NCBI GenBank assembly: GCA_030602715.1
Contig: JAUVZD010000008.1
Coordinates: 64,001 to 128,000, forward strand
Source: Candidatus Coatesiibacteriota bacterium
GTDB taxonomy: Bacteria > RBG-13-66-14 > B26-G2 > JAUVZD01
Direction of reading: 5' to 3'
DNA length: 64,000 nt
The notes beneath the pieces were generated by a model. It had not been told where the DNA came from. It was given only the letters and a program-made list of their open reading frames with translations, and made no database searches. Below are positions 1-59,342 of this stretch, one piece after another (position 1 is the first letter of the stretch; each line of letters begins with the position of its first letter). A program made the translations under genes and the position numbers.

Positions 1-928
1 TATAGAGGCGAAAGATGAGGACTCTATCAAGTCGGGGGTTTTGATCTGTTCAAAGTGTGGACGAAGATACAGTATTGAGAACTATATCCCGCGTTTTGTC
101 CCTTCCCAGAATTATGCCAGCGGATTTGGATTGGAATGGACCATACATGCGCGGACCCAATATGATAGTTATAGTGGCTGTGATATATCGGAAACTAGAT
201 TTTTTAACGAGACCAGGTGGTCAAGAAATTTAAGCGGGCAAGTGATTTTGGAGGTGGGTGGTGGTTCCGGCAGGTTTACCGAACAAGCGGAATCTACCGG
301 AGCGATGGTCATCTCATTAGATTATAGTTATGCGGTGGAAGCCAATTATGCTTCTAATGGGCACAAAGATAATGTCATGATTGTTCAAGGCGACCTTTAC
401 AACATGCCCTTTAGAAGAAACTTCTTTGATAAAATTTTTTGTTTCGGGGTTTTACAGCATACTCCTGATGTGGAGAAAGCGTTTATGGTTCTACCGCAAT
501 ACTTGAAATCAGGCGGTAGTATAGTTATTGATGTGTATCGTAAATATTCCGGGTTGAAGGGGCTTTTCAAGACCAAGTATTGGGTAAGACCGGTCACTAA
601 GAAAATTCCAGCAAGAAAGCTGTATTATTTTGTAAAGCGGTACGTGGAATTTATGTGGCCGCTGACCAAACTTCTCAATAAGATCCCATATTTTGGGAAG
701 CGGCTTATTTGGATGCTACTGATTGCAGACTACCGAGGGGTGTATAATTTGTCAGAAGACCTATTAGGGGAATGGGCTATACTGGATACATTTGATCTGT
801 TGTCACCCGCCTTTGACCAACCACAAACTATAGAGACGGTGCGCGGATGGTTTAAGGACGCAGGTTTATGTGGGGTAGAGGTTAATTACGGTTATAATGG
901 CATTGAAGGGCGAGGGATAAAACCGTAA
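1..928 (+). CDS. Class I SAM-dependent methyltransferase with N-terminal zinc-ribbon (5' end outside window)
   Basis: The frame is open back to base 2, so the true start lies upstream and the gene is 5'-truncated; a TTG at 41 is only an internal codon. The visible protein begins with a Trm112-like zinc-ribbon remnant (ICSKCGRRY, then IPRF) followed by a Rossmann methyltransferase: the SAM-binding loop reads VILEVGGGSGRF and the acidic end of strand 2 is SLDYSY. The family methylates sugars, lipids or quinones; the substrate cannot be read here. The next two genes (glycosyltransferase, O-antigen ligase) point to surface polysaccharide modification. Base composition is AT-rich like those neighbours. 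Confidence 0.8.
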   Translation, partial: IEAKDEDSIKSGVLICSKCGRRYSIENYIPRFVPSQNYASGFGLEWTIHARTQYDSYSGCDISETRFFNETRWSRNLSGQVILEVGGGSGRFTEQAESTGAMVISLDYSYAVEANYASNGHKDNVMIVQGDLYNMPFRRNFFDKIFCFGVLQHTPDVEKAFMVLPQYLKSGGSIVIDVYRKYSGLKGLFKTKYWVRPVTKKIPARKLYYFVKRYVEFMWPLTKLLNKIPYFGKRLIWMLLIADYRGVYNLSEDLLGEWAILDTFDLLSPAFDQPQTIETVRGWFKDAGLCGVEVNYGYNGIEGRGIKP

Positions 929-1005
929 GCTTTGATAGTTGTCGCCTGTTTGCTAAAGGTAGGTCCGGGAGTTTTTTGTTTTTACTTTTTCATGGTGATT
1001 TAGAA

Positions 1006-1986
1006 ATGAAAAGAAAGAAGCTCTCAGCAGTGATCGTGACTTATAACTCAGCGGAGGACATTCTAGGGTGTTTGAAATCCATCTATTCTGAAGATAAGGA
1101 TGTGCAGATTATAGTTGTGGATAACAGTTCTGAGGATAATACAATTAAACTTGTTAAAATTAAATTTCCCCAGGTAGTAATTATTCTCATGGGCGGTAAT
1201 CTCGGTTATGCTGCCGGGGTTAATCGTGGAATTGCTGAAAGCTCGGGAGAGTTTATACTTATTATCAATCCAGATTGTCGGATTCTAACTGGGGCTTTAT
1301 CGGCAATGTGTAAAACAATAGCTTTATCAGAAGCAGGTGCGGTGGGACCTATGCTGATGGATGAGAATGGAATCATTGACCCAAACACCAGCCGCCAGGA
1401 CCTTAGTTGGCATATTATTCTGTTTACTGTATTGGGAATTGACAGTAAAAAGTTTAACTTTACCATATTTCGAAGGTATTATTATCGGGGACAAACCGTT
1501 GATAAAGAATGGCAAGTTAAGCTTCTATCCGGAGCTTGCATGATGATAAAGAGGGAAGTGGTGAGAGATGTTGGTGGGATGGATACTGGGTTTTTCTTGT
1601 TTGGGGAGGATGTAGACTTTTCTCTGCGGATAGGTCGAGGTGGCTATAGATTGTTCTATCAGCCCAAAGCCAGGGTTATACATCATACCGGAAAGAGCCG
1701 TAGAAGTAATGTAGGACAGGTTATGGCTGAGGAGATTTGGAGCATGTCCAGATTGGCAGCCAAGTTGGGATTTAGTGTAACTAGTAAGCTAGCGTTATTT
1801 TTGGCTATTTTTTTACTTCCACTGAGGGTTTTGTGGGTCCAATTGGTGAGGAAAGGATCAGGTAGTTTAAGGTTTCAAAGGGCAAGCGAGATTCTTAAGT
1901 ATATATTCTATAAAATAAGAAAACAGGGATGGCCTTGGGCGAATATATCACAAGAGAACTACATACCCCTCAAGGATAGTGGTTAA
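1006..1986 (+). CDS. Family 2 glycosyltransferase (rhamnosyltransferase-like)
   Basis: A GT-A fold glycosyltransferase of about 326 residues. Visible family features are the N-terminal SAVIVTYNS strand, the VVDNSSEDNT nucleotide-binding segment, NLGYAAGVNRG, the metal-binding region INPDC and the late FFLFGEDVDFSLRI acceptor motif, followed by a hydrophobic C-terminal stretch. I prefer ATG 1006 (MKRKKLSAVIV) over the TTG at 976, because homology starts there and the extra ten residues are hydrophobic noise; no strong ribosome site decides it. It probably transfers a deoxysugar or hexose during O-antigen or exopolysaccharide assembly. Its stop abuts the start of the O-antigen ligase gene, so the two are cotranscribed. 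Confidence 0.85.
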   Translation: MKRKKLSAVIVTYNSAEDILGCLKSIYSEDKDVQIIVVDNSSEDNTIKLVKIKFPQVVIILMGGNLGYAAGVNRGIAESSGEFILIINPDCRILTGALSAMCKTIALSEAGAVGPMLMDENGIIDPNTSRQDLSWHIILFTVLGIDSKKFNFTIFRRYYYRGQTVDKEWQVKLLSGACMMIKREVVRDVGGMDTGFFLFGEDVDFSLRIGRGGYRLFYQPKARVIHHTGKSRRSNVGQVMAEEIWSMSRLAAKLGFSVTSKLALFLAIFLLPLRVLWVQLVRKGSGSLRFQRASEILKYIFYKIRKQGWPWANISQENYIPLKDSG

Positions 1987-37977: not shown

Positions 37978-38901
37978 CTACCTGAAGAGGGATTTTATCC
38001 CTCCCAGTGAGGTTGGTTGGATATTTATTAGATGTGTCCCACCCCACATTAGCAGATTGTGCAATATCTCGTTTCGTTCCTCCTGGTCGCCGATAGATTC
38101 AATTGGGCAGGAGAGCAGGGCGATATGATACTCTCCTGAACCGATAGTCTTTTCCCCGCATGCATAGACGCACGAATAATGGTGATGCTCCTCATCCGCA
38201 TCCACCCAGATGGCGGTGGCATCCCCGGGGAAGACCGCTTCCAGTTGGTCCGGATAGTTGAAATCGGAAGCCCAGATTATCTCATAGGATGAGGTGCCGT
38301 AGAACTGGTCCCCCACCCCTTCCAGAGCCCAGTCGTCGTCAACATGAATCCAATCGGTGAAGTTGTCCTCAATATAGGAGAGCCCCAACAAAGCGCTGAA
38401 TAAGGGGCTGTAGAACTGCGTATGGTCGTCGGAGTTGGCGATGCAGTTCCAGGCGATCCACATCCCGGAGAGGATAAGCAGACGGTCCTGGTCGCCGGTG
38501 TTGAGATAGGTCTCCAGGGTTCTTTCTTCACTGAGGCTTAAGGTCAAATGACCGAAGTAGGGGTCGTCTGCGGGGTATTGACCGGAGTTCCCGGTGTACC
38601 AGATAATTGCGCTGTATGGTTCAAGGTCCCCGATGGTGGGGCTTCCCAGCGCATTGTGGTCCCAGATGGTGTAGGCGTAGCCGTAATAATCCATTGCGGA
38701 GACATAGTATTCGTCAAAGAACTGGGGGTCGGCGACGCCGTCAACCTGGTCGCTGACCAGCAGGACGGACGAGGTGGGCAGTAGATGTATGGTTTCCGTC
38801 TCCCTTAGCCCGTTTTCCGCACCGAGGGTCGCAGCAGTGGTTATGGATAGCAGGATAGCAGTGAGTATGCAGATAGCCGTAGTATTTTTATATGCCGACA
38901 T
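37978..38901 (-). CDS. Exported protein with GATase-like fold and C-terminal TSLGxIKSLFR tail
   Basis: 307 residues. A signal peptide (ICILTAILLSITTAATLGA) precedes a domain with an alternating strand-helix pattern (SVLLVSDQVDG, YSAIIWYTGNSG, LSEERTLETYLNTG, RLLILSGMWIAWN) like class I glutamine-amidotransferase-like or ThuA folds often found beside C25-type proteins. The catalytic triad is not recognisable. The last residues, INIQPTSLGGIKSLFR, are nearly identical to the end of the upstream gene product (38908-39693). Six bases separate the two genes, so they are cotranscribed and likely paralogous by fold. Confidence 0.65.
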   Translation of the reverse strand: MSAYKNTTAICILTAILLSITTAATLGAENGLRETETIHLLPTSSVLLVSDQVDGVADPQFFDEYYVSAMDYYGYAYTIWDHNALGSPTIGDLEPYSAIIWYTGNSGQYPADDPYFGHLTLSLSEERTLETYLNTGDQDRLLILSGMWIAWNCIANSDDHTQFYSPLFSALLGLSYIEDNFTDWIHVDDDWALEGVGDQFYGTSSYEIIWASDFNYPDQLEAVFPGDATAIWVDADEEHHHYSCVYACGEKTIGSGEYHIALLSCPIESIGDQEERNEILHNLLMWGGTHLINIQPTSLGGIKSLFR

Positions 38902-38907
38902 ATCCCG

Positions 38908-39693
38908 TTACCTGAAGAGGGATTTGATGTAGCCCAAGGAGGTGGGTTGGATGGAGACCTCTATGTCCAGCAATGATATGATACCTGCCATCAAGGCATC
39001 TTTGGTATTCTGTCCCATTCCGTCTTGCAAGGAGCCGAAGATGATGGTGGAACAATATACCTTGCCCCCGGTGGTTTCGGGGTCGTTGAAGACACAGCGA
39101 ACATTGGAAATCTCGCCGGCTTTTCGGGAGGTGAAGAGGACGTCGTCGGCTTCGGCGGAGAGTTCGTCCACATAGTTGTCCGGCAGTTCTATCTGATAGG
39201 CGTAATAGACGAATGAGTATCCTTCAAATGGTCCCCCAGCGGTCCCCTCCAGGACATCCACATTACCGCCATCATAGACATATCTGCCGTCGTGCTCAAA
39301 AGTAGCCCCGGTCCAGGAGAACAGGGTGGTGGAGTAATAGTCGTTTCCAAAATCCCCGCCTTCAACATAGAGGTTTCCCCCATTTTCTAAGTATGACACC
39401 AAAGTGTCCTGCTCACTTATGGACAGGGTTCCATCCATGGGCCACGAGCCAAGAAGGACGAAGACGGTATCGTAACCGCCCAGGTCGACGGGAAGGGTGT
39501 CCACCTCGTCTATCTGCCATACGAAGTTGTTAGCCAGGGCGTTGATTATGGCGTAGGCGGAATCAACGGTGTTATGGCTCTCCGGGTCGGTGAAGGTCAG
39601 TGTGTTGTTGTCCCACACCAATACCGCCGACCAGAGAAGACTCGGCAAAATGACCACCAACAGCAGGGGAGAAATTTTTAATAGTTGTTTCAT
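38908..39693 (-). CDS. Exported protein with GATase-like fold, paralogue of the next gene
   Basis: 261 residues. Signal peptide (LLLVVILPSLLWSAV), then the same kind of domain: YDTVFVLLGSWPMDG, LSISEQDTLVSYLENGGNLYVEGGDFG. It ends SIQPTSLGYIKSLFR, matching the tail of the neighbouring protein although the bodies share only the fold pattern. I start at ATG 39693 (MKQLLK), six bases after AAGG, and not at GTG 39699. Function unknown; the shared tail may be a sorting or anchoring signal. Confidence 0.65.
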   Translation of the reverse strand: MKQLLKISPLLLVVILPSLLWSAVLVWDNNTLTFTDPESHNTVDSAYAIINALANNFVWQIDEVDTLPVDLGGYDTVFVLLGSWPMDGTLSISEQDTLVSYLENGGNLYVEGGDFGNDYYSTTLFSWTGATFEHDGRYVYDGGNVDVLEGTAGGPFEGYSFVYYAYQIELPDNYVDELSAEADDVLFTSRKAGEISNVRCVFNDPETTGGKVYCSTIIFGSLQDGMGQNTKDALMAGIISLLDIEVSIQPTSLGYIKSLFR

Positions 39694-39714
39694 CTCCACC
39701 CTTCTTTGTGGTGG

Positions 39715-42229: not shown

Positions 42230-43276
42230 ATGTCGGATGATGAGATTCGCTTGACCCAGGATGTCGCCGCCGCCGGTTGAGCGGCGAAACTTGAGGCTAC
42301 CCTCCTGTCGCAGGTTCTCTCATCTCTGCGACTGCCCAAAGACCCCAGGGTTCTGGTCGGTCTGCATACCGCAGACGACGCCGGGGTATATCTAATTAGC
42401 GAGGAACGCGCCCTGGTGCTCACCACCGACTTCTTCACCCCTATAGTGGACGACCCCTACACCTTCGGCGGAGTCGCCGCCGCCAACGCCCTCTCCGATG
42501 TCTATGCCATGGGTGGGCGGGCGCTTACCGCCCTCGCCATCGCCGCCTTCCCAAACCATAAATATCCCACCGAGGTGCTCACCGCCATCACCCAGGGAGC
42601 CGCCGATAAATGCGCCGAGGGGGGCTGTGTGCTCATCGGTGGACATACTGTAAAGGATGAGGAGTTGAAGTTCGGCTTGGCGGTGACCGGTGAGGTTCAT
42701 CCCCAGAAAATAATCACCAATTCTCGTGCCCGGGTGGGGGAGCTTTTGCTGCTGACCAAGCCCCTGGGCACCGGCATCATCAACACTGCGGTTAAGGGAG
42801 ATGCGTGCGACCCGAAGGCGGAGGATACAGCGATAGAGAATATGCTCCTGCTAAACGCTGGCGCTTGTGAGGTGATGGGGGAGATGGGCACCGTCTGCGC
42901 CACCGATGTCACCGGCTTCGGTCTGCTGGGACACGGACTGGAGATGGCTAAGGCAAGCGAAGTAGCCCTCTACTTTGATTCCAGCAAGGTGCCGGTGATG
43001 CCCCACGCAGAGGACTATGCGGGTATGGGATTGATACCAGGGGGTTTGAATTGCAACAAGGACTACCTTGAAGGTCATCTGACCGTTGAGGGTGAGGTCT
43101 CCAGAGAGCGGCTGGATTTGATGTTTGACCCGCAGACCTCCGGGGGGCTTCTCATCTGCGTATCGTCCAAGCGAGCCGGGGAGATGGTGGAGAAGCTGAG
43201 GGAGAGGGGCTATCCCCAAACGGTTGTGGTCGGTGAGGTGATTGAGGGGGAGGCGGGTAAGATAGTGGTGAGGTAG
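42230..43276 (+). CDS. selD: Selenide, water dikinase SelD, itself a selenoprotein (UGA at 42278-42280)
   Basis: 348 residues if the in-frame TGA at codon 17 is read as selenocysteine. The start is ATG 42230 (MSDDEIRLTQDVAAAG), and after the TGA the frame continues AAKLEATLLSQVL into an intact SelD: HTADDAGVYLI, LTTDFFTPIVDDPYTFGGVAAANALSD, GGHTVKDEELKFGLAVTG, TDVTGFGLLGHG and DPQTSGGLL. In SelD this position is the catalytic Cys or Sec of the GCAAK-type loop, here A-G-Sec-A-A-K. It makes selenophosphate for Sec and selenouridine synthesis. GGAGG lies 11 bases before the ATG. The organism must therefore have selA, selB and selC elsewhere. Confidence 0.93.
42281..42316 (+). promoter_or_regulatory. 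Candidate bacterial SECIS element in selD
   Basis: Directly after the UGA, GCGA (42284-42287) pairs with TCGC (42308-42311), and inside it GAGG (42293-42296) pairs with CCTC (42301-42304) around loop CTAC. The distance from UGA to the apical loop, 16 bases, fits the lower end of bacterial SECIS spacing. The usual loop G/U is not obvious. Confidence 0.4.
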
Positions 43277-52677: not shown

Positions 52678-54582
52678 ATGGGGCTTCGTCCAATACCTGT
52701 CTTTAGAATAATCCTTCCACTGGCTTTATTCATCCTGGTTCCTTCCATAATCCTCGCTCAGCCGGTTCTTGTGTCCATCACCTTGCGGGATTATGACGGA
52801 GGCTCCTTCTCCGATGAGTATACCGACCAACTGCTGGTCCGGGTTGACTTTGAGGTGACTGGGACTCCGACTGAGATGATAATGTCCGAGGACCCTACTT
52901 TCTCCGGAGCGAGCTGGGTTCCGTATACCAATCCCGCTGAATTCACCTTTACTCCCGGGGAAGGAATACGCACTCTCTATGCCAAGGTTAGAGACGCCGT
53001 CGGTGAGAGCGAAGCCAGGAGTGATGACATCTGGGTGGATACTATTGCTCCCTCAATCGCTCCGGATTCGCTTCCGCCGGAAATGTATGACCCACTGATT
53101 TACATTACCTATCCCGACGAAGAATCTCCCCCCGCCAGCCCGCTCTGGCATGTATACCTGTATTACAGGTTTGAAGGCGGCGCCTGGACCTACTATGACG
53201 ACGATTCCCCTCCCACCGGACAATTCCAATTTGATGCAGGACCGATTGGTTCGGGAACATACGATTTTGAGATAGTAGCTCAAGATATGGCGGGAAATTG
53301 GGAAACGCAGACCGGCGTCCCCGAAGCCTCCACCTACATCTATACCGATGGCATCGGTCTTCGCAGTATTTTGGTAACCGACTACGATACCGACGACCCG
53401 CTCTACACCGACAACTATCTGGTGCGGGTAACTATGGATGTAGGCGACCCGGATGACGCTGCCTGGATGAAACTCTCCGAGGATCCGGCGTTCGGCGGCT
53501 CGTCGTGGGATTCTTTTGAGAATCCCACCACCTTCACACTGAGCGAAGGGGAGGGCTTGAAGACCGTATATTGCAAGCTGGCTACCGTTGAGTTTGTGGA
53601 GACCCCGCCAAAGAGCGATACCATAACCGTCTCGTTTGCCGATATGACTTTGGAGGAGGTGGTGGTCTCCGATGTGGACAGCGGAAGTACTGAGTATACC
53701 GACAATCCCGATGTGCGGGTGGCTTTGACCGTCACCGGTTCGGAGACGCCGGTATGGATGCAGATATCCGAGGATAGCAGTTTCACCGGTGTGGACTGGA
53801 TTCCCTATCAACAGGAGTCCATATTTACCCTCAGTGAGGGCGATGGTCTGAAGACCGTCTATGCCCGAGTTGCCGACCCCGATTACAGCCCCAGTAATAT
53901 CAATCAGGATACTATTACCCTGGATACCCTCCCTCCAAACTCCATACTCGGCAGTCTGCCCTACTCTACGAGCGAGGTGGTCTTACAGATTCCGTTTTCC
54001 ACCGAGGGAGGTGATCCTCCAGCATCGCCGATAACCGCCGTGGAACTGTGGTATAACCGTGAGGGTGAAAAAACCGATTACAGCACATCGGCACTTTCGG
54101 GGGGCAGTATCTTCTCATTCCCGGTTGCCCAACAGCCCCCCGACTGGGTGTTGTATCAGACGGTGGGTGGGACCGAGAGCTTCTTCTCCTTTGACAGCTC
54201 CACCATCGGAGGAGCCGGGACCTATCATTTCATCTCCATAGCAGAGGACGCCGCCGGAAATCGCAAGCCCTGGCCCGATGAGGTGGAGCAGACGGTAGTC
54301 TTCATCAGCGAGGGCGATGTCGGACCTGTGCATCAAATCCTGACCCCGAATGGCGACGGTATTAACGATTCTACTACATTTATCTTCCCCAAAACCTCAT
54401 TGGGGATGGTATATCTTTATATCTATTCCCGGGAAAGGATTCTGGTATTTGAGAGTATATCAAGTGACCCCGTCTGGGATGGAAGAGATAATAAGGGTAA
54501 AATTGTTCCCGGGGGGATTTATATCTTCCAGTTGGTTACCGATAGTGCGGTCTATAACGGCACCGTGGTTGTAGCCCGGTAA
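52678..54582 (+). CDS. Secreted repeat protein with gliding-motility/CHU_C-type C-terminal domain
   Basis: 634 residues. Signal peptide (IILPLALFILVPSIILAQ), then three to four Ig-like repeats with a recurring pattern: YTD...VRV, SEDPTFSGASW, FTFTPGEGIRTLYAKV; SEDPAFGGSSW, FTLSEGEGLKTVYCKL; SEDSSFTGVDW, FTLSEGDGLKTVYARV. The last 85 residues, LTPNGDGINDSTTFIFPKT ... WDGRDNKGKIVPGGIYIFQL, are the FlgD/CHU_C-type domain used as a type IX secretion signal in Bacteroidota. It is followed by the PorV-like gene, which fits type IX secretion. Confidence 0.75.
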   Translation: MGLRPIPVFRIILPLALFILVPSIILAQPVLVSITLRDYDGGSFSDEYTDQLLVRVDFEVTGTPTEMIMSEDPTFSGASWVPYTNPAEFTFTPGEGIRTLYAKVRDAVGESEARSDDIWVDTIAPSIAPDSLPPEMYDPLIYITYPDEESPPASPLWHVYLYYRFEGGAWTYYDDDSPPTGQFQFDAGPIGSGTYDFEIVAQDMAGNWETQTGVPEASTYIYTDGIGLRSILVTDYDTDDPLYTDNYLVRVTMDVGDPDDAAWMKLSEDPAFGGSSWDSFENPTTFTLSEGEGLKTVYCKLATVEFVETPPKSDTITVSFADMTLEEVVVSDVDSGSTEYTDNPDVRVALTVTGSETPVWMQISEDSSFTGVDWIPYQQESIFTLSEGDGLKTVYARVADPDYSPSNINQDTITLDTLPPNSILGSLPYSTSEVVLQIPFSTEGGDPPASPITAVELWYNREGEKTDYSTSALSGGSIFSFPVAQQPPDWVLYQTVGGTESFFSFDSSTIGGAGTYHFISIAEDAAGNRKPWPDEVEQTVVFISEGDVGPVHQILTPNGDGINDSTTFIFPKTSLGMVYLYIYSRERILVFESISSDPVWDGRDNKGKIVPGGIYIFQLVTDSAVYNGTVVVAR

Positions 54583-57451: not shown

Positions 57452-57482
57452 CGGGCATTAGACTAACAGATTGGAGGAAGAT

Positions 57483-59342
57483 ATGTTCAAGTTGCTCTCT
57501 GTAACCCTTATCTTATTCTTGGCTTTTGCCGTCCCCGTCATTGCCTCAGAATATCCCGGCGTGGTGGATGTAAAAGAGCTTATTTGGGTGGGTATGGAGA
57601 ACACTCCCCCGATGAGCGGAGAGGAGATCAAAACCCGCTATTATACCGGACTGCCCTTTCGTCTAAGTGTGGTTTACAGCAGTTCCGGCGATAAGTGGTC
57701 CGACCCCTTTCTGATAATCGTCAACGAGGAGCTTTATCCCCAGATCAGCGACAAGCTGATAGATGAATATGTGCCCCAGCTGGAGGGGGATGGGATATTC
57801 ATTGAGGTGTGGACAACGCTCTACGGCACCCCGGAGGACCTCAGGGACGCTATGGCGGACTACTATTCTATTAACGGCTCTTACTATTGCATGCAGGTCG
57901 GGGAGTTTCCCCCACCGCTCTCGGAGATAGGCTTCTTCCCCGGCGAATCCACGCCTTACCCCATAGACTTCTTCTTCATGGACCTGGACGGGGAGTGGAT
58001 TGACTACGATGAGGACGGTTACTACGACGACCATACCGGCAGTCTGGAACCGGATATCGTCTTCGGTCGTCTGGCGGCATACACCCTCACTTACGGTTCC
58101 AGTGATGAAGCGGAGTTGGTCAACCACTACCTGGACAAGAATCTGGCTTATCGTCGGGGTGAAACCACCGAGGTGCTTGAGCGAGCCCTGGCTTTCATAG
58201 ACGATGATTGGTTCTACTGGGCGTATAGCGACTGGGGTTACTGGCTGGCATGGGCATATCCGGATACAGAGATAATCGCCGACTACAGAACTGTCGCCGA
58301 GGAATACCGTGATATGCTGGACGACAACTACGAATATATCTTCTTAGCCGCACACTCCAACCCCAATATGCATCAATTCAAGATCGGTGAGGAGTGGGAG
58401 TCGGATACGGTCCACTATACAGATATAATCAACATCCAACCCATCGCCCAGCACTACAACTTCTTCTGCTGTTCATCGGCACAATATACCTTTAGCAATT
58501 ACATCGTCGGCTGGTATATCTTCAACGAAGGCGATTATGGGCTTATGGGTATCGGCTCGGCGAAGACCGGCTCCATGTTGTATTATGAAGATTTTTACCC
58601 GTTGTTAGCCGCTGAGGGTTATACCTTCGGTGAGGCTTTCCGTTACTGGCTGGAGATGAACAGTGAAGTTGACCGCCAGTGGTTCTACGGCATGACCCTC
58701 ATCGGAGACCCACTGCTTAAGCCCTATGCTTATATGGTGGATATAGAGGTCGCTTATTTCAAGGCTACGCCGTCCGACAAAGGTATAAACCTGGCCTGGG
58801 AGTTGAGCGGTGATGAGCTCCCCCTGGGCTTCAATCTATATCGGCAGGAGATATGGTCAGATACTGGGGGGGATTCCTCCCGGGCTGGCGTTCTTTGGGG
58901 AGATAGGGCCACACTGGAGACTAGAATAAACCAGAGCCCCATCACCGGCTCAGGCGTCTATCATTACCTGGACGATGGGGTGAGTGGCGGGGGGACCTAT
59001 CGGTATCGTCTGGAGGCGATAACCGAATACGGTCTGGAGAACCTTGCATCTTGTGAGGGGACTATGGGGGACGGAGCGGTCTCTTTCAATCTCAGCCAGA
59101 ACTACCCCAACCCCTGGAGTGGAAGCACGACGCTTGGTTTCACCCTCTCCCAGGCGGGAATGGTACTCCTTGAGCTTTACGACATCTCCGGGAGAATGGT
59201 TGAGGGGATAGTTGAAGGTCAGTATTCAGCAGGCGAGCACAGCCTTGTCCTGAGCGATGAGGGCTTGGAGAGCGGCCTTTATCTCCTTAGACTGACCTGT
59301 GGTGAGCGCAGTGCCGCCAGAATCATGGTGCTTATGAAGTAG
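57483..59342 (+). CDS. C25-family (gingipain-like) cysteine peptidase with type IX sorting domain
   Basis: 619 residues. Signal peptide (LLSVTLILFLAFAVPVIAS), then a caspase-like C25 fold: FLIIVNEELYPQISDKLIDEY, FGRLAAYTL, a His-containing FLAAHSNPNMHQF and the cysteine in NFFCCSSAQYTF, as placed in gingipains; then GIGSAKTGSM and LIGDPLLKPY. A fibronectin-like domain follows and the last 85 residues are a type A sorting domain: FNLSQNYPNPWSGSTTLGF, VLLELYDISGRMVEGI, LESGLYLLRL. ATG 57483 is set by GGAGGAAGAT. Autocatalytic processing or target is unknown. Confidence 0.82.
   Translation: MFKLLSVTLILFLAFAVPVIASEYPGVVDVKELIWVGMENTPPMSGEEIKTRYYTGLPFRLSVVYSSSGDKWSDPFLIIVNEELYPQISDKLIDEYVPQLEGDGIFIEVWTTLYGTPEDLRDAMADYYSINGSYYCMQVGEFPPPLSEIGFFPGESTPYPIDFFFMDLDGEWIDYDEDGYYDDHTGSLEPDIVFGRLAAYTLTYGSSDEAELVNHYLDKNLAYRRGETTEVLERALAFIDDDWFYWAYSDWGYWLAWAYPDTEIIADYRTVAEEYRDMLDDNYEYIFLAAHSNPNMHQFKIGEEWESDTVHYTDIINIQPIAQHYNFFCCSSAQYTFSNYIVGWYIFNEGDYGLMGIGSAKTGSMLYYEDFYPLLAAEGYTFGEAFRYWLEMNSEVDRQWFYGMTLIGDPLLKPYAYMVDIEVAYFKATPSDKGINLAWELSGDELPLGFNLYRQEIWSDTGGDSSRAGVLWGDRATLETRINQSPITGSGVYHYLDDGVSGGGTYRYRLEAITEYGLENLASCEGTMGDGAVSFNLSQNYPNPWSGSTTLGFTLSQAGMVLLELYDISGRMVEGIVEGQYSAGEHSLVLSDEGLESGLYLLRLTCGERSAARIMVLMK

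Follow-up and report, generated by a model that had tools for sequence, protein, structure and literature searches.

Encapsulin cargo-loading peptides and the encapsulation peptides of microcompartments are short, C-terminal and borne on a linker, and they dock in a pocket of a protein; their cargo is cytosolic. Exported proteins can also be addressed from their C-termini. Mutagenesis of the type A C-terminal domain (CTD) of the type IX secretion system (T9SS), as given in PMC10202324, indicates that the last 13 to 22 residues matter most. The same source reports for the CTD of HBP35 that the last 22 residues suffice for secretion of GFP through the T9SS and that the last 13 residues, conserved lysines included, are needed for secretion; the type C CTD (ChiA-like) is described there as a C-terminal region of 100 residues with conserved motifs (cl41395). 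LPXTG and PEP-CTERM signals, according to PMC1569441, combine a motif with a transmembrane helix and a cluster of basic residues.

The tail described here ends two neighbouring proteins of the window, that is, of the whole stretch of 64,000 nucleotides from a Candidatus Coatesiibacteriota bacterium that was analysed. It appears to be an undescribed address tag on dozens of unrelated exported proteins per genome in several little-known phyla. A literature search that left most subscription journals outside its range found no description of it. Tails with W may already have been noticed in Eisenbacteria proteins.

Two neighbouring proteins with one C-terminal tail

The features of the window on which the analysis is based are the following.

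37978..38901, minus strand: tail protein 1, 307 aa, with signal peptide, body and C-terminal tail
37981..38022, minus strand: tail IQPTSLGGIKSLFR of protein 1, abutting the stop codon at 37978-37980
38908..39693, minus strand: tail protein 2, 261 aa from the ATG at 39693, with signal peptide, body and C-terminal tail
38911..38952, minus strand: tail IQPTSLGYIKSLFR of protein 2, abutting the stop codon at 38908-38910
52678..54582, plus strand: contrast, protein with a type B (CHU_C) T9SS domain and no tail (33.6 bits, Pfam cut-off 27)
57471..59342, plus strand: contrast, Peptidase_C25 protein with a type A T9SS domain and no tail (TIGR04183, 31.4 bits, cut-off 23)

Both tail genes lie side by side on the same strand, the gene of protein 2 six bases upstream of that of protein 1. 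An alternative GTG start is possible for protein 2 and gives an ORF at 38908-39699 (minus strand). An earlier note on this DNA had claimed that these two secreted neighbours share their last residues on bodies that have just a general fold in common, and this is what is found: both ORFs are present, IQPTSLGGIKSLFR and IQPTSLGYIKSLFR are identical at 13 of the last 14 residues, the pair reading IQPTSLG[G/Y]IKSLFR, and the bodies are weakly alike. Compared at full length by BLASTP the proteins have 28% identity over 208 residues (E 6e-7); once signal peptide and tail are trimmed, the bodies give no mutual match at E<=1e-3 in the set of 123 proteins. Neither body has a match above cut-off in Pfam or NCBIfam, and an AlphaFold2 run on tail protein 2 with its neighbour reached a pLDDT of 32. 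The two other proteins of the window to which the note had assigned T9SS domains are also there, at 52678-54582 and 57471-59342; against TIGR04131 the former scores 24.3 bits, below the cut-off of 35.

When tail profiles were run against the 829 six-frame ORFs of the window, the pair came out on top (E 5e-7 to 2e-10), the next ORF standing at about 0.6 and the best reversed ORF, with the same profiles, at 0.4. A profile taken from the other genomes of the phylum, with no row from the source genome, ranked the pair first as well (E 5e-7). This ranking, the reversed ORFs and the reversed control of the strict DNA pattern of the tail, which had zero matches in the genome, rule out a chance origin of the shared tail.

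Form and distribution of the tail

With the strict DNA pattern followed by a stop-like codon, the search of the source genome returned the window pair, one more true tail and one internal false match. With the stop left off, a wider pattern matched 22 times, against 3 in its control; 17 of the 22 are the ends of tail-bearing ORFs and 5 are not. Profile A1, built from those 17 tails, found 41 matches in the genome at E<=10 and 37 at E<=0.01. The tail is the terminus of 38 ORFs of the source genome, and confinement to the window pair, which the earlier note had named as evidence against a signal, was not observed. Four extra ORFs (L047, L048, L052 and L054) run on for 17-31 residues after the motif lysine, where about four are usual, which suggests that recognition does not strictly require a free C-terminus. 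L047 and L048 have an identical glycine-rich end of 31 residues beyond the motif.

For 36 of the 38 tails of this genome (profile A2, from which L015 and L065 were omitted) the consensus reads VQPxSLGxIKALFx, in which S and G never vary; the final residue in this genome may be R, K, H, Q, N or E. The codons of the motif glycine are 13 GGC, 13 GGT, 7 GGG and 5 GGA, and such synonymous mixing in the codons of conserved residues argues for selection at the level of the protein. The 33 long tail proteins of the genome fall into 24 body families, some of the genes grouping as paralogue families; simple duplication is rejected on the grounds of the codon mixing and the number of body families.

Two further observations were made on the pattern matches and on fragments. 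At G000:C3:20140-20470 three near-identical direct repeats in one reading frame matched the wide pattern and are unrelated to the tail. Five short tail fragments (L005, L014:1342-1524, L015:2301-2465, L057:1404-1532 and L058) start right after a TAA or TAG, with no upstream frame, and are probably remnants of decayed tail genes.

Taken over all genomes, the proteins begin with a signal peptide, followed by a body that varies and is often rich in beta structure and then by a linker. The conserved stretch, about 10-14 residues that read V[QEA]P[TA]S[LW]Gx[IV]K[AS][LM][FY]x, closes the protein or lies close to its C-terminal end. Outside the Coatesbacteria-like genomes the L becomes W in all 93 rows kept, giving [ST]WGx[IV]KA[LM][YF]R. 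A model made from these 93 foreign W rows alone recovers 3 of the 38 tails of the source genome at E<=1e-3 and misses the window pair. A profile built on 47 tails of the phylum's other genomes, where both forms occur, recovers 35 of those 38 and 91 of the 93 foreign W tails (E<=0.01), and one genome encodes two NHL proteins, 48% identical, one with the L form and the other with the W form. Judged from their sequences, the two forms are one motif, tied together by the mixed tails of the phylum and by the NHL pair.

The description of the tail as basic and amphipathic, also put forward in the earlier note, held in part. The helical moment of the foreign tails (0.427) is clearly above that of shuffles (0.327, sd 0.0135), whereas that of the source genome's own tails (0.314) is hardly higher than in theirs (0.290, sd 0.024), and the last residue is not always basic. 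A strand-like period scores as high as the helical one in this analysis.

The wider model [ST][LW]Gx[IV]K[AS][LMI][FY]x is found in every one of the 14 genomes from the phylum of the window, and likewise in all 20 of the Eisenbacteria phylum. Within the former, the L-form profile A2 detects tails in 8 of the 14 genomes and the mixed profile A3 (77 rows chosen from 103 external tails and the 38 of the source genome) in 14, with at least 14-144 tails per genome at E<=0.01, the counts for G003-G005 being lower bounds. In the Eisenbacteria phylum A3 finds 17-69 tails per genome, 933 in total, at E<=0.001. As a specificity control at the same threshold, A3 found no tail in 191 of 198 genomes of Bacteroidota, the phylum of an Ignavibacteriae genome; the remaining seven have one tail each. 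One genome of the phylum set, G004, is the same as G018 (CP070633.1, Candidatus Coatesbacteria bin961), with identical tail places and scores.

A scan of named genomes with a DNA pattern that fixes A at position -4 and R at -1 gave at least 118 matching stretches; the pattern includes the stop codon, so the terminal position of its matches is given by construction. Among the matches listed are Eisenbacteria, Effluviviaceae, Zixibacteria, Krumholzibacteria, KSB1, Coatesbacteria, one Ignavibacteriae and one Gemmatimonadota, together with one genome titled Nanoarchaeota that may be mis-binned. The named genomes taken for closer search were selected for holding a match.

The seven Bacteroidota matches and seven proteins from genomes with one copy of the tail (KSB1, Ignavibacteriae and others) form one family. 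It has 13 distinct members, since L233 from the Bacteroidota set and L160 from the named genomes are the same gene. They are proteins of about 130-200 aa with a signal peptide, an FnIII-like domain, a linker and the ending [TS]WGSIKA[LMI]FR; Pfam gave no FnIII match in the family, and the term FnIII-like is our own reading. In an alignment of seven of them the mean pairwise identity is 92% over the last nine residues and 35% in the body, and 8 of the 16 invariant columns fall in the tail. The AlphaFold2 model of an FnIII-like protein has a confident domain at about 22-111 (block pLDDT 82-94), followed by a low-confidence linker and by the tail, a short helix at 120-127 of low pLDDT that lies outside the confident domain. 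No beta-sandwich is seen in this tail, whereas the type A CTD is an Ig-like domain of that fold with about 100 residues. In this model the tail looks like a binding peptide and not like part of the fold. At one of the loci the gene for a Peptidase_C25 protein with a C25 propeptide (L177:1-2943, minus strand) lies two genes away from that of the FnIII-like protein. No operon shared with secretion genes was common to the FnIII-like loci inspected.

Export and bodies of the tail proteins

A signal peptide is present in all 33 tail proteins of the source genome that could be judged, a count that covers the tail ORFs long enough and excludes five fragments shorter than 100 aa. The assignment was by rule in 29 of them; in three (L057, L062 and L065) the signal peptide lies upstream of an in-frame TGA, and in L056 it was found in another reading frame. 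The rule is loose, being passed also by 23 of 50 ordinary genes of the window, so the export reading leans as well on N-termini inspected directly. Of the external complete tail proteins, 81 of 90 have a signal peptide by the same rule; among the nine failures, two have one before an in-frame stop and L172 has one from a later start. The expectation that every protein with the motif carries a signal peptide was thus borne out in each judgeable case of this genome, and occurrence of the motif on cytoplasmic proteins was not. A cytoplasmic cargo peptide is rejected as an explanation, because the tail proteins have signal peptides.

The in-frame stops deserve a separate description. At 42230-43276 (plus strand) the window contains a gene that we read as selD, with an in-frame TGA at 42278-42280 in the context AAAGUAAKL, a Cys/Sec-xxx-Lys site; the start given in the ORF list, 42416, is too late. 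From this TGA it is very likely that the genome uses TGA for selenocysteine. Four tail genes have an in-frame TGA behind the signal peptide, at L057:1821-1823, L062:1187-1189, L065:1103-1105 and L095:5733-5735, in the contexts FGTTTUPYC, PWCGGU, PFCGSU and FYGCU, respectively, three of which have UxxC or CxxU. Their products are probably exported selenoproteins. Hairpins 3' of these TGA codons are not clearly better than those of shuffles. In L136 (upstream of 790-1653, minus strand) a TAG splits the signal peptide from the body, where the homologue L140 has arginine; we read this codon as an assembly error or the mark of a decayed gene.

The body types matched in Pfam and NCBIfam are beta helix, NHL, MAM, CBM96, LTD, FG-GAP and choice-of-anchor J, and some bodies match NCBIfam models of PEP-CTERM, rhombosortase-dependent and myxosortase-dependent proteins. 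By these matches the bodies are of kinds that elsewhere carry C-terminal sorting signals.

The known signals themselves were sought in the 95 full-length proteins (set A4) out of 123 complete tail proteins. TIGR04183, TIGR04131 and the other NCBIfam sorting-signal domains matched none of the 95 at E<=0.01, and PF18962 and PF13585 are absent among the best 25 of the 30 Pfam families for the tail proteins. Searched alone, 77 tails gave nothing in NCBIfam at E<=10, and Pfam returned just one transposase model, weakly and for two tails. Comparison by hhalign of A3 with seven of eight type A CTDs of the phylum (A7) gave a probability of 0.2 over one column, that is, no relation. Tail and T9SS domains are mutually exclusive on proteins, with no overlap in the 95 and 36 type A domains alongside the tails in the source genome. 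The separation of the tail from the type A and type B domains, as drawn in the earlier note, therefore stands, and a known type A or B CTD is rejected on the absence of model matches and the null profile comparison with type A. The 38 tails of the source genome have few residues between motif and stop and no hydrophobic stretch of transmembrane length. A sortase-type signal is rejected, the tail having no transmembrane stretch.

Proposed function and comparison with known systems

The SprA/Sov ORF of the source genome has 1993 aa and scores 323 bits with TIGR04189 (cut-off 200). SprA was detected at E<=0.001 in 57 of the 59 tail-bearing genomes tested: in 14 of 14 of the window's phylum (11 through PF14349 and three more through TIGR04189), in 19 of 20 of the Eisenbacteria phylum (17 above cut-off; G055 weak) and in 24 of 25 others. 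The two without it at this threshold are G059, of 1.7 Mb, from the Eisenbacteria phylum and G020, of 0.8 Mb. None of 14 control genomes has SprA. Because these phyla commonly have SprA in any case, its co-occurrence with the tail supports a mechanistic link only weakly. Moreover, the tail is absent from most of the sampled Bacteroidota, the home phylum of the T9SS, and so a T9SS probably does not need the tail.

On balance we lean towards the view that the tail is a short signal at the C-terminus by which proteins are sorted or anchored, and that its reader is probably a component of the outer membrane that belongs, or is linked, to the T9SS. A distinct signal of this kind had been suggested from the window pair, and the 38 ORF ends and the signal peptides in 33 of 33 proteins support it; the sorting function itself we infer from sequence, and among known kinds it would fall under the C-terminal sorting signals. 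In the model, the tail proteins would be exported by Sec and their bodies would then fold in the periplasm. The linker would present the tail as a short helix, whose W/L, I, L/M and F/Y side chains would dock, together with the lysine, in a receptor common to all tail proteins of the cell. This receptor would most likely be an outer-membrane shuttle or translocon component belonging to, or linked to, the T9SS, and a tail of about 20 residues would do the job of folded sorting domains of 100 or more.

A wider scenario is offered more tentatively. The tail may represent an undescribed class of sorting signal, with neither folded domain nor membrane anchor, that is carried by tens to more than 100 proteins per genome in several FCB candidate phyla and operates in parallel to the T9SS domains. 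Its founder may have been the single-copy FnIII-like exported protein, whose tail is almost unchanged in Ignavibacteria-like, KSB1 and other genomes, and the tail would have spread to many bodies once the receptor had become a general carrier.

The main rival, which we consider rather unlikely, is that the tail docks Sec-exported proteins on the periplasmic side, to the face of a membrane or to a protein of the envelope, and that the T9SS has no role. A short and possibly helical tail that lies outside the folded body, as predicted for the FnIII-like protein, would serve such docking, and the single-copy protein keeps its tail nearly constant across phyla, as a structural docking part would. 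The scarcity of the tail in the sampled Bacteroidota agrees with this explanation too, and a precedent may be seen in SkpA, whose C-terminal helix, according to PMC10994853, docks onto PorV from the periplasmic side. Against it stand the bodies, which are of surface and extracellular types (beta helix, CBM96, NHL, LTD), and the presence of SprA in 57 of 59 tail-bearing genomes.

Quite improbable is a periplasmic tag for folding, chaperone binding or proteolysis that gives no address; it would be short, partly hydrophobic and C-terminal, as the tail is, and would tolerate the free variation of the last residue seen in the source genome, but a pattern that hardly varies over hundreds of exported proteins from two phyla, and that most genomes of another phylum lack, is better explained by a dedicated receptor. 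Derivation from a known T9SS CTD of type A, B or C, by divergence or truncation, is very improbable. Tail and CTD share phyla, genomes, terminal position and signal peptides, and canonical type A domains of the phylum likewise end in a basic residue; against this stand the 95 proteins without TIGR04183 or TIGR04131, the null comparison with type A, the conservation of some 20 residues and the predicted absence of a beta-sandwich in the FnIII-like tail. Least credible of all is plain inheritance through a common ancestor or DNA duplication, to which the weak full-length similarity of the neighbours (E 6e-7) and the paralogue families would lend themselves and which is at odds with 24 body families among 33 proteins, mixed synonymous codons and unrelated bodies in other phyla.

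If the tail is a sorting signal, it would mark out the proteins that are secreted or placed at the surface in organisms most of which cannot be cultured, and would give a common fate to hundreds of proteins without assigned function in Eisenbacteria, Coatesbacteria and their relatives. Its receptor could be sought in genomes by co-occurrence, the genomes with one copy being the cleanest place to look for the partner. Were the T9SS to read it, a signal of 20 residues without a folded domain would simplify what that system recognises.

With LPXTG, PEP-CTERM/exosortase, GlyGly-CTERM/rhombosortase and MYXO-CTERM the tail has in common a short C-terminal homology block on many unrelated exported proteins, and its bodies are of the same choice-of-anchor kinds as those of sortase-type signals. 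Unlike LPXTG and PEP-CTERM, it lacks a transmembrane stretch, and the protein ends with the motif itself. Encapsulin and microcompartment peptides resemble it in being short, C-terminal and linker-borne, and differ in that the tail proteins have signal peptides. The C-terminal helix of SkpA, likened here by its description in PMC10994853, is also short, outside the folded body and bound to the T9SS outer-membrane component PorV, whereas SkpA is itself a component of the extended T9SS translocon and not a tag on many substrates. Like the T9SS CTDs of type A (TIGR04183/PF18962) and type B (TIGR04131/PF13585), the tail is C-terminal, sits on Sec-exported proteins, occurs dozens of times per genome and belongs to FCB bacteria with SprA/Sov. 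It differs from both in having about 20 residues in place of about 100 or more, in matching no model and, in the one usable structure prediction, in showing no folded domain; from type A it differs further by the lack of profile similarity and by its use alongside 36 type A domains within one and the same genome.
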